DNA of 64,000 nucleotides from Salvelinus alpinus (lineage: Eukaryota; Chordata; Actinopteri; Salmoniformes; Salmonidae). This document shows, one piece after another, positions 4,001-13,000 of the stretch (the first letter of the stretch is position 1; each line of letters opens with the position of its first letter). Under the pieces are notes generated by a model. The model searched no databases. It was not told the DNA's origin and saw nothing but the letters and a program-made list of their open reading frames with translations. Made by a program: the position numbers and the translations under genes. The DNA lies in NCBI RefSeq assembly GCF_045679555.1, contig NC_092089.1:3298652-3362651 (forward strand), written 5' to 3'.

Positions 4001-7000
4001 CAGCTTTATGATTGGTTACTAACAATCTTCTCAGCCGAGTGATTGGTCACTAACTCTCCTCTCTGGTCTGTGATTGGTGTCCAGGAATGGCAGGACTACC
4101 GTCTGACGTGGGTCCCTGAGGAGTTTGATGGCATGGAGAAGGTCAGACTGCCTTCCAAACACATCTGGCTGCCCGACGTTGTGCTGTATAACAAGTGAGT
4201 TACACACACACACACATCTGGCTGCCCAACGTTGTGCTGTATAACAAGTGAGTTACACACACACACATCTGGCTGCCTGATGTTGTGCTGTATAACAAGT
4301 GAGTTACACACACACACACATCTGGCTGCCCAACGTTGTGCTGTATAACAACTGAGTTACACACACACATCTGGCTGCCCAACGTTGTGCTGTATAACAA
4401 GTGAGTTACACACACACACATACACACACACATCTGGCTGCCTGACGTTGTGCTGTATAACAAGTGAGTTACACCCACACACACACACACATCTGGCTGC
4501 CTGACGTTGTGCTGTATAACAAGTGAGTTACACACACACACACACACACACACACACACACACACACACACACACACACACACACACACACACACACACA
4601 CACACACACACACACACACACACACACACACACACACACACACACACACACATCTGGCTGCCTGACGTTGTGCTGTATAACAAGTGAGTTACACCCACAC
4701 ACACACACACATCTGGCTGCCCGACGTTGTGCTGTATAACAAGTGAGTTACACCCACACACACACACACATCTGGCTGCCCAACGTTGTGCTGTATAACA
4801 AGTGAGTTACACACACACACACATCTGGCTGCCTGACGTTGTGCTGTATAACAAGTGAGTTACACACACAAACACATCTGGCTGCCCAACGTTGTGCTGT
4901 ATAACAAGTGAGTTACACACACACACACACACACACACACACACACACACACACACACACACACACACACACACACACACATCTGGCTGCCTGACGTTGT
5001 GCTGTATAACAAGTGAGTTACACCCACACACACACACACATCTGGCTGCCTGACGTTGTGCTGTATAACAAGTGAGTTACACCCACACACACACACACAC
5101 ACATCTGGCTGCCCGACGTTGTGCTGTATAACAAGTGAGTTACACCCACACACACACACACATCTGGCTGCCTGACGTTGTGCTGTATAACAAGTGAGTT
5201 ACACACACACACACGCACACACACACACACACACACACACACACACACACACACACACACACACACACACACACACACACACACACACACACACACACAC
5301 ACACACACACACACACACACACACACACACACACACACATCTGGCTGCCTGACGTTGTGCTGTATAACAAGTGAGTTACACCCACACACACACACACATC
5401 TGGCTGCCCGACGTTGTGCTGTATAACAAGTGAGTTACACCCACACACACACACACATCTGGCTGCCCAACGTTGTGCTGTATAACAAGTGAGTTACACA
5501 CACACACACATCTGGCTGCCTGACGTTGTGCTGTATAACAAGTGAGTTACACACACAAACACATCTGGCTGCCCAACGTTGTGCTGTATAACAAGTGAGT
5601 TACACACACACACACACACACACACACACACACACACACACACACACACACACACACATCTGGCTGCCTGACGTTGTGCTGTATAACAAGTGAGTTACAC
5701 CCACACACACACACACATCTGGCTGCCTGACGTTGTGCTGTATAACAAGTGAGTTACACCCACACACACACACACACACATCTGGCTGCCCGACGTTGTG
5801 CTGTATAACAAGTGAGTTACACCCACACACACACACACATCTGGCTGCCTGACGTTGTGCTGTATAACAAGTGAGTTACACACACACACACGCACACACA
5901 CACACACACACACACACACACACACACACACACACACACACACACACACACACACACACACACACACACACACACACACACACACACACACACACACACA
6001 CACACACACACATCTGGCTGCCTGACGTTGTGCTGTATAACAAGTGAGTTACACCCACACACACACACACATCTGGCTGCCCGACGTTGTGCTGTATAAC
6101 AAGTGAGTTACACCCACACACACACACACATCTGGCTGCCCAACGTTGTGCTGTATAACAAGTGAGTTACACACACACACACATCTGGCTGCCTGACGTT
6201 GTGCTGTATAACAAGTGAGTTACACACACAAACACATCTGGCTGCCCAACGTTGTGCTGTATAACAAGTGAGTTACACACACACACACACACACACACAC
6301 ACACACACACACACACACACACACACACACACATCTGGCTGCCTGACGTTGTGCTGTATAACAAGTGAGTTACACCCACACACACACACACATCTGGCTG
6401 CCTGACGTTGTGCTGTATAACAAGTGAGTTACACCCACACACACACACACACACATCTGGCTGCCCGACGTTGTGCTGTATAACAAGTGAGTTACACCCA
6501 CACACACACACACATCTGGCTGCCTGACGTTGTGCTGTATAACAAGTGAGTTACACACACACACACGCACACACACACACACACACACACACACACACAC
6601 ACACACACACACACACACACACACACACACACACACACACACACACACACACACACACACACACACATCTGGCTGCCCAACGTTGTGCTGTATAAGGAGT
6701 GAGTTACACACACAAACACATCTGGCTGCCTGACGTTGTGCTGTATAACAAGTGAGTTACACACACACACACATCTGGCTGCCCAACGTTGTGCTGTATA
6801 ACAAGTGAGTTACACACACACACATCTGGCTGCCTGACGTTGTGCTGTATAACAAGTGAGTTACACACACATCTGGCTGCCCGACGTTGTGCTGTATAAC
6901 AAGTGAGTTACACACACAAACACATCTGGCTGCCTGACGTTGTGCTGTATATCAAGTGAGTTACACACACACACATCTGGCTGCCCGACGTTGTGTTGTA

Positions 7001-10000: not shown

Positions 10001-13000
10001 GAGTTACACACACATCTGGCTGCCAAACGTTGTGCTGTATAACAAGTGAGTTACACACACACACACATCTGGCTGCCTGACGTTGTGCTGTATAACAAGT
10101 GAGTTACACACACACATCTGGCTGCCCAACGTTGTGCTGTATAAGGAGTGAGTTACACACACACACATCTGGCTGCCCGACGTTGTGCTGTATAAGGAGT
10201 GAGTTACACACACACACACATCTGGCTGCCCAACGTTGTGCTGTATAACAAGTGAGTTACACACACAAACACATCTGGCTGCCCAACGTTGTGCTGCATA
10301 ACAAGTGAGTTACACACACACACATCTGGCTGCCCAACGTTGTGCTGTATAACAAGTGAGTTACACACACAAACACATCTGGCTGCCCAACGTTGTGCTG
10401 TATAACAAGTGAGTTACACACACATCTGGCTGCCTGACGTTGTGCTGTATAACAAGTGAGTTACACACACAAACACATATGGCTGCCCAACGTTGTGCTG
10501 TATAACAAGTGAGTTACACACACACACACACACACACACACACACACACACACACACACACACACACACACACACACACACACACACACACACACACACA
10601 CACACACACACACACACACACACACACACACACACACACACATCTGGCTGCCCAACGTTGTGCTGTATAACAAGTGAGTTACACACACACACATCTGGCT
10701 GCCTGACGTTGTGCTGTATAACAAGTGAGTTACACACACATCTGGCTGCCCGACGTTGTGCTGTATAACAAGTGAGTTACACACACATCTGGCTGCCCGA
10801 CGTTGTGCTGTATAACAAGTGAGTTACACACACACACACATCTGGCTGCCTGACGTTGTGCTGTATAACAAGTGAGTTACACACACACACACACATCTGG
10901 CTGCCCAACGTTGTGCTGTATAACAAGTGAGTTACACACACACACACATCTGGCTGCCTGACGTTGTGCTGTATAACAAGTGAGTTACACACACACACAC
11001 ACATCTGGCTGCCCGACGTTGTGCTGTATAACAAGTGAGTTACACACACACACACACACACACACACATCTGGCTGCCCGACGTTGTGCTGTATAAGGAG
11101 TGAGTTACACACACACACACACATCTGGCTGCCCGAAGTTGTGCTGTATAACAAGTGAGTTACACACACACACACATCTGGCTGCCCAACATTGTGCTGT
11201 ATAACAAGTGAGTTTCACACACACACACATCTGGCTGCCTGACTTTGTGCTGTATAACAAGTGAGTTACACACACACACACACACACATCTGGCTGCCCG
11301 ACGTTGTGCTGTATAAGGAGTGAGTTACACACACACACACACACACATCTGGCTGCCCGACGTTGTGCTGTATAAGGAGTGAGTTACACACACACACACA
11401 CATCTGGCTGCCTGACGTTGTGCTGTATAACAAGTGAGTTACACACACACACACACATCTGGCTGCCCAACATTGTGCTGTATAACAAGTGAGTTACACA
11501 CACACACACATCTGGCTGCCTGACGTTGTGCTGTATAACAAGTGAGTTACACACACACACACATCTGGCTGCCTGACGTTGTGCTGTATAACAAGTGAGT
11601 TACACACACACACACATCTGGCTGCCCAACGTTGTGCTGTATAACAAGTGAGTTACACACGCACAATGTCATACTATTTGAATCCACAAATCACATTACA
11701 GTGGAGAAGGATCCAAACATTTTAAAGACACGGATATCTGGGCACTTATAGATACAGAAAGCACCTTGTTCTCCAAACAGCTAAGCTGTCCATGACCGCT
11801 GACACAGAGCAGTACCTTGGTAGCAGCTTTGCCTTTGTCCTCTGCAGGCCGTCAATCTGAAGGCCACATACTGTCAGCCTAAGTACATGGCCGAGACTCC
11901 CAAATATCAGCGCCACAAGTTTGCAGTGATAATCAAGGCTGTTGAGGCATGATACTCTGGGCTAGTGCATCAGCAACTGTCTGCTCTACGTAGGAGTCAG
12001 AAGAGCAACCAACTTCCACAAACAAACACACACACACACACACACACACACACACGCACGCACGCACGCACGCACGCACGCACGCACGCACGCACACACA
12101 CACACACACACACACACACACACACACACACACACACACACACACACACACACACACACACACACACACACACACACACACACACACACAGTACAGCATT
12201 GTTTCTCAACTCCAGTCTTCTAGTCCCTATCTTATCGTAGTCTCTTAGCCCGGTGTAACTTATCTTATCGGAGTGTCTTAACCCTGTGTAAGCTATCTTA
12301 TCAGTGAAAGTGAACTGCCTGGCCTCGATCTCCTCTTTCTCTAATGCCGTCTTACACTGATTAACCAACCGGCGGGGGCTAAACGGATCTACTTACCCCC
12401 CCCCCCCCCCCAGCCCCCACCCCCATAACCACTAACAACACATTAATACGGTCAGTCACAAACTAATGGGTTCCATTGATTTAATTCCTTACGAAGGGTA
12501 ATCAATATCTTGATCTTCCTCCATTGCTCTCTTTCTTTGTTCTCTACCTGAGGTATTTGACCTGTTCTCTACCTGAGTTCTTTGACCTGTTCTCTACTTG
12601 AGGTATTTGACCTGTTCTCTACCTGAGGTATTTGACCTGTTCTCTACCTGAGGTATTTGACCTGTTCCCTACCTGAGGTATTTGACCTGTTCCCTACCTG
12701 AGGTATTTGACCTGTTCCCTACCTGAGGTATTTGACCTGTTCCCTACCTGAGGCATTTGACCCCTTCCCTACCTCAGTTCTTTGACCCCTTCCCGACCGG
12801 AGGCATTTGACCCCTTCCCTACCTGAGGCATTTGACCACTTCCCTGCCTGAGGCATTTGACCCGTCCCCTACCTGAGGGATTTGACCCGTTCCCTACCTG
12901 AGGCATTTGACCCCTACCCTACCTGAGGCATTTGACCCGTTCCCTACCTGAGGGGTTTGACCCGTTCTCTACCTGAGGGATTTGACCCGTTCTCTACCTG

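Follow-up and report, generated by a model that had tools for sequence, protein, structure and literature searches.

A large tandem array of exon ends and 5' splice sites at the exon-4/intron-4 boundary of chrnb2 in Salvelinus alpinus, probably a minisatellite of the 'mirage' kind

In the 64,000-nucleotide stretch of Salvelinus alpinus DNA analysed here (the window; NC_092089.1, forward-strand positions 3,298,652 to 3,362,651), chrnb2, the gene of the neuronal nicotinic receptor beta-2 subunit, carries an array of 124 tandem copies that runs from the true exon-4/intron-4 junction into the intron. The array was read as a 'mirage', meaning a minisatellite that arose at an exon-intron boundary, of which the first donor would be used and the downstream donors would be bystanders, and a probability of roughly 0.8 was given to this reading. 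The kind is already known, and the chrnb2 array is a new and very large example of it. The array is most likely tolerated, since the cell would use the first donor.

Exons 3 to 6 of chrnb2 lie in the window on the forward strand and were placed by conserved protein sequence. Exon 4 occupies 4085-4194 (110 nt), with its final 36 bp as copy 1 of the array, and the authentic 5' splice site GTGAGTTAC (4195-4203), donor 1 of 123, opens intron 4 (4195-14025). The acceptor for the exon-4 donors belongs to exon 5 (14026-15145). Exon 3 (1047-1091, 45 nt) was placed by its translation and its AG/GT borders, and the last coding exon (VSEDWKY...TNTNG stop) lies at 18625-18777. The introns around exon 4 are long (2993 nt before and 9831 nt after). 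The translation spliced at donor 1 agreed with the salmonid beta-2 proteins P0001-P0007 (98-100% identity), and the partial protein of Salvelinus namaycush (P0007) contained the exon 4-5 protein of the window unchanged. The WLPD motif was present in 116 of the 120 homologues listed, the coding sequence of array copy 1 being conserved, and the remaining four (P0066, P0069, P0080 and P0114) had no exon-4 motif whatsoever. Conserved protein, BLAST and Tandem Repeats Finder (TRF) together confirmed the gene, the exon-4 junction and the array as they had been named in the initial annotation, which had also been right about the coordinates and about a count of about 120.

The array extends over 4159-11662 of the forward strand (start at 4159 or 4164, end approximate), with the first donor at 4195 and the last at 11648. 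Its unit consists of TCTGGCTGCCCGACGTTGTGCTGTATAACAA (the 31-bp exon end and ACACA), then the donor GTGAGTTAC and then a CA run. The exon-derived part is certain for 31 bp and is 36 bp at most, the ambiguity arising because ACACA is common to the exon and the CA run. GTGAGT was kept in 123 of the 124 copies, copy 4 having CTGAGT, and the copies fell by motif into TCTGGC (121), TCTGGT (2) and TATGGC (1). The donor contexts were CAA|GTGAGTTAC in 108 copies, GGA|GTGAGTTAC in 13, which are the AAGGAG variants described earlier, and CAA|GTGAGTTTC in two. There were 18 distinct 40-mers among the copies, and the shortest units measured 47 bp. Exon 4 gave 124 BLAST matches against the window, 123 of them starting within the array; exons 3, 5 and 6 matched only themselves. 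The TRF score of the main array block (5903), together with 0 matches from 20 shuffled exon-end probes, excluded chance. Tandem units thus span the exon-intron boundary of exon 4, the authentic exon copy (copy 1) stands at one end of the array, and the splice signal is present in many but not all units, as in a mirage.

The array would have arisen by slippage or unequal exchange between the exon ACACA (4159-4163) and the CA run slightly inside the intron (TTACACAC), by which the exon end and the donor would have been duplicated. The shortest units fit the size predicted from such ACACA-mediated slippage. Later exchange and block duplication would then have given 124 copies here and fewer at the paralogous locus described below. 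Nested block duplication inside the array is visible in two perfect repeats on the forward strand: 7742-8622 (881 bp) recurs without mismatch at 9440-10320 (offset 1698), and 8777-9486 (710 bp) recurs likewise at 10638-11347 (offset 1861). A higher-order repeat of about 675 bp, with about three turns and units with long CA runs, occupies 4530-6667 of the same strand.

A search of the whole genome (2.37 Gb) found exon 4 unchanged over a 131-bp query at a second locus (locus B; C4:28871496-28871626), about 25.6 Mb from the window on the same contig (C4, 103,748,206 bases). The 137 bases preceding exon 4 were identical between the window and locus B, as was exon 3, and the two were colinear over more than 60 kb among the alignments listed. 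Six re-aligned blocks had 89.0-97.7% identity, with mismatches of 0.9-2.7% and gaps for the remainder. Over exons 3-5, the product of locus B equals the Salvelinus alpinus protein P0001. An allelic haplotype was disfavoured by the separation on one contig and by the block divergence; the latter was apparently too high for alleles, and locus B was therefore taken for a paralogue, which could stem from a whole-genome duplication followed by late divergence, from a segmental duplication or from a misplaced copy.

The array of locus B has 23 units with GTGAGT in 23 of 23. Both arrays share the start and the ending intron flank, and they differ in copy number (124 vs 23) and in the order of units. 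The mean unit divergence was 4.3% within the window, 3.0% within locus B and 3.8% between them, and this similarity means that neither array has an identity of its own, as expected if they arose once and have since undergone turnover or exchange. Differences of similar size between the two loci are seen in other minisatellites (25 bp, 32.6 vs 64.6 copies; 84 bp, 6.2 vs 21.2 copies). Separately, a 50-bp minisatellite of 117 copies (33638-39302 of the window) is nearly absent at locus B, where the flanking alignments are only about 290 bp apart.

An array inflated or invented by the assembler was considered highly improbable. The perfect 881-bp and 710-bp repeats could reflect mis-joined reads, and 7500 N, possibly an assembly gap, stand directly upstream of the window (C4 up to 3298651; L017 2501-10000). 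Against this, divergent unit types are interleaved, and arrays with different unit orders occur at two loci far apart on one contig; a 23-unit version at locus B makes an artefact at the window locus alone unlikely, and weakens the artefact that the initial annotation had itself allowed for. The existence of the array is firm, and its exact length and copy number are not to be trusted.

For splicing, the lengths of the flanking introns make exon 4 a case of exon definition. Its 3' splice site would pair with the nearest donor across 110 nt; the nearest donor is the authentic one and would hence be used, and the 122 downstream donors, without a 3' splice site of their own, would remain in the intron as bystanders. 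No match to a pyrimidine tract with YAG was found within the array, where CAG occurs only twice and TAG not at all. Where near-equal donors compete between long introns, the upstream one is reported to be favoured, and in five minigenes that carried the same strong donor twice only the upstream copy was used (PMC9225289). In the variable number tandem repeat (VNTR) of human ABCA7 intron 18, the form retaining one unit amounted to 2 ± 1%, independent of array length, and a longer array was accompanied by more skipping of the next exon (exon 19) and lower expression (PMC5954066). From these two sources, a few per cent of transcripts may be expected to use donor 2 or 3, or up to donors 2-5, and a length effect of the array on the next exon is possible.

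Transcripts from downstream donors would be removed by nonsense-mediated decay (NMD), having a stop just one codon after the junction. Splicing at donor 2 lengthens the exon by 53 nt and reads ...VVLYNK and then TGA (computed translation). This TGA stands in frame directly after AAG at the first junction, in bases that every later donor retains. The immediate in-frame TGA proposed earlier was thus found for donor 2, and longer protein isoforms of the kind said to arise in human IFI6 were not obtained, the TGA being kept (computed for donor 2). The suggestion that the first donor wins through exon definition is likewise taken as right, and use of that donor with slight leakage into NMD is considered the most likely outcome.

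Several observations weigh against this choice of donor. The computed U1 duplex of donor 1 was -6.1 kcal/mol, as against -8.5 for the exon-3 donor and -8.6 for the exon-5 donor; donor 1 is not stronger than the other array donors, and elsewhere in intron 4, 2 of 197 GT sites match or exceed its U1 pairing. The predicted unpaired probability of donor 1 was 0.013 (median of the others, 0.031), and 120 of the 122 other donors were at least as open in predicted folding. Preference for the upstream donor was found in only 60% of all near-equal competition events, and larger exons were skipped when both donors were weakened (PMC9225289). The database protein P0001 reads as spliced at donor 1, but it may be a gene model and therefore counts as weak evidence of which junction is used. 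Concealment of the later donors by RNA structure was not supported, donor 1 being among the least open in predicted local folding.

The initial annotation had also pointed to GTGAGT in nearly every copy, which holds as a count and fails as a sign of function. Only 1 of a minimum of 18 substitution events fell within the six donor columns of 40 (P(<=1) = 0.22), and with three events of locus B added the figure was 1 of 21 (P = 0.16). Donor columns were not significantly depleted of events, no greater conservation of the donors than of the remaining unit was detectable, and donor conservation was thus not supported as a sign of selection. The main changes were at one CpG, from CCCGAC to CCTGAC or CCTGAT in 46 copies and to CCCAAC in 42. 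Such a pattern is the expected outcome of deamination at a methylated site.

Control of dosage by the array, in which donors and CA runs would divert transcripts or slow the removal of intron 4 and long alleles would yield less chrnb2 mRNA, was judged unlikely. It agrees with the same immediate stop being kept by downstream donors (shown for donor 2), with the strong difference in chrnb2 copy number between the two loci and with the correlation of ABCA7 VNTR length with lower expression and next-exon skipping (PMC5954066); hnRNP L, a heterogeneous nuclear ribonucleoprotein, stimulates splicing via CA repeats according to a title cited in PMC2777938. On the other hand, the one-unit retention of ABCA7 was independent of length, constraint on the donors was undetectable and other minisatellites vary equally between the two chrnb2 loci. 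A more specific form, entertained as a long shot, is a length-tunable drain: each unit would raise U1 occupancy and the unproductive or delayed splicing of intron 4, the length of the array would set the amount of beta-2 in char brain, and copy 1, by exchange with the array, could also acquire an Asp-to-Asn change in the WLPD codon of the exon.

The conserved Asp codon of the WLPD motif reads Asn in 44 of the 124 copies, His in two and Glu in two, and exchange of copy 1 with the array could therefore be predicted to bring a missense change into the exon. The final 36 coding bases of exon 4 belong to an array whose copies exchange, and this makes them a mutation hazard.

Protection of the long intron from premature polyadenylation by a dense platform of U1 was scarcely credible. 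U1 suppression of polyadenylation has been described (PMC3826338) and 123 U1-type sites stand within 7.5 kb, but AATAAA and ATTAAA were both absent from intron 4 and there would therefore be little to suppress; the array itself moreover accounts for most of the length of intron 4. Protection of this kind was rejected on the scan of intron 4, which gave no polyadenylation hexamer.

Boundary arrays were also sought at homologous exons. Genome-wide, 69 exon-4 matches were listed, 14 in the array of the window and 55 elsewhere; 40 of the 55 were examined, and the 15 left out were among the weaker ones. At 30 loci the flanks reached 1500 bp in either direction, and at 10 they comprised 600 bp upstream and 1000 bp downstream; a boundary array was scored where the flank held at least 3 copies of an exon edge. 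Seven of the 40 loci had one, both chrnb2 loci included. In an alpha-6/alpha-3-like pair (L021 and L022; C6, 80.26 and 80.66 Mb), copies of a 23-bp exon end follow the donor of exon 4; the two introns 4 contained 7 and 19 fuzzy matches to it, respectively, nearly all without a donor, and GTGAGT occurred twice in one intron and once in the other, the authentic site included. In an alpha-7-like pair (L051 and L052; C6, 80.41 and 80.78 Mb), an acceptor array some 300 bp ahead of the exon (position 1498) holds seven complete 3' splice sites at 49-bp spacing, six of them extra and the last authentic. An alpha-7-like relative (L054; C4, 70.83 Mb, reverse complement) has a different acceptor unit, of 35 bp, upstream of the exon, apparently of independent origin at the same boundary. 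The C6 pairs, 0.4 Mb apart, may be local or assembly duplications. Four distinct boundary arrays were thus found in the nicotinic receptor family, two donor-side and two acceptor-side.

The background rate was obtained from random 110-bp intron segments, placed no closer than 150 bp to the exon at the 33 other exon-4 loci, and 127 of 600 passed the same test; elsewhere the passing segments numbered 183 of 400 for the window, 98 of 400 for locus B and 75 of 200 for the stretches L020-L022. TRF arrays occupied 43.5% of the window. The rate at exon 4 (7/40, and again 7 in a recount with the identical filter) was not above that of random segments (P = 0.69), and the exon edge therefore appears to have been captured by chance in DNA rich in minisatellites. 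On this comparison, a special hotspot at exon 4 was not supported. The exon-4 boundary had been singled out in the initial annotation, which does not agree with boundary arrays in other nicotinic paralogues at about the random-segment rate.

The other exons speak against chance capture. No real boundary array was found among the 28 other-exon matches in the same genes (one locus counted twice; L022:8303, which had been flagged, was discarded by eye as a CT microsatellite). The figure of 0/28 was below the random-segment rate (P = 0.003) and below exon 4 (P = 0.036; loci not independent). Exon 4 may therefore be somewhat more prone to arrays, or other exons may be better protected, and chance capture is unsettled to that extent.

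These loci also bear on a helping role, in which U1 small nuclear ribonucleoproteins on the downstream sites would assist the definition of exon 4 with its weak donor and the array would be an intronic enhancer. The weaker U1 pairing of donor 1 than of the exon-3 and exon-5 donors fits such a role, and inclusion of an exon can be rescued by modified U1 particles that bind downstream of its donor (PMC4822034). However, the array donors are equally weak, 33 of the 40 homologous exon-4 loci examined do without such arrays and nearly all donors have disappeared from the alpha-6-like arrays on the donor side, and the helping role was regarded as very unlikely.

Other tandem repeats adjoin the exons of chrnb2. 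A 31/62-bp array (3818-4078, forward strand) with TACTAAC or CACTAAC, pyrimidines and partly TCTCAG adjoins the exon-4 3' splice site; the branch point of exon 4 is likely to lie in its last unit, by which the branch-point region of exon 4 would also be amplified. Minisatellites lie on both sides of exon 3 (1-1012 and 1102-1808); the upstream one, of 32 bp, has 32 CTCTAAC matches, a possible branch point, and the downstream one, of 28 bp, begins 11 bases past the exon end. In intron 5, an 84-bp unit (16339-16864) contains a complete acceptor-like site TTCCCTGCAG with no adjacent exon, which occurs 6 times in intron 5 of the window and 21 times in the stretch of locus B.

Boundary minisatellites, known from amphioxus and a few human genes, are thus also present in a salmonid, with at least four distinct arrays in one receptor family and on both exon sides. 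The chrnb2 array amounts to a natural experiment on how splice sites are chosen: a conserved neuronal gene has 123 near-identical donors, of which all but the first lead to a stop, and the paralogue with the short array is a built-in control. The array is also a pitfall for gene prediction, for the mapping of short reads and for the assembly of long ones.

No chrnb2 or salmonid boundary array was found in the literature searched, within the limits of the terms and coverage, and a search for the antisense reading frame of the array as a protein elsewhere gave no match (7994 top word-sharing candidates scored; little weight, the query being rich in CV repeats). The initial annotation's statement that it knew of no described example was wrong, because ABCA7, IFI6 and the amphioxus mirages have been described. 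The ABCA7 VNTR has 12-427 units from the exon-18 donor onward, with alleles of 0.3-10.7 kb (PMC5954066). As in ABCA7, the chrnb2 unit takes in the canonical donor of the exon before it, the units extend into the intron in a similar size range and use of the second donor gives a stop (by frameshift in ABCA7). The ABCA7 unit of 25 bp, however, begins at GT, seemingly without exon sequence, whereas the chrnb2 unit copies the exon end. The length of the ABCA7 array is known to be polymorphic and tied to exon-19 skipping and expression.

A minisatellite with multiple splice donors in human IFI6 (6-16, G1P3) is said to have been described by Turri, Cuin and Porter in 1995 (NAR 23:1854). Two downstream repeat units of IFI6 are said to serve as donors (PMC4526556). 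Extra splice donors are supplied by a minisatellite in both genes, but the IFI6 isoforms are said to encode different proteins, whereas a downstream donor of chrnb2 leads to a stop one codon past the junction. In brook charr, a minisatellite of the major histocompatibility (MH) class II beta gene reportedly acts in cis on expression in a temperature- and length-dependent manner, according to a title of Croisetiere et al. from 2010; it is, like that of chrnb2, a gene-linked minisatellite in char, and splice sites are not mentioned in the title. In human duplicated genes, tandem repeats activate cryptic splice sites and form novel introns (PMC2812944).

The amphioxus mirages are minisatellites at intron-exon boundaries with regular splicing reported as undisturbed, and they occur at both 5' and 3' boundaries with length instability (PMC3087553), the arrays of the char family likewise being on both sides. 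They share with chrnb2 the tandem units spanning the boundary, the splice signals kept in many units and the authentic copy beside the exon. Their units measure 10-72 bp (Adh3) or 150-160 bp (globins), and the chrnb2 units carry a CA run; an amphioxus globin gene has 6 and 3 units in two haplotypes, whereas in char the array belongs to a vertebrate receptor gene and has 124 and 23 units, respectively, at two paralogous loci.

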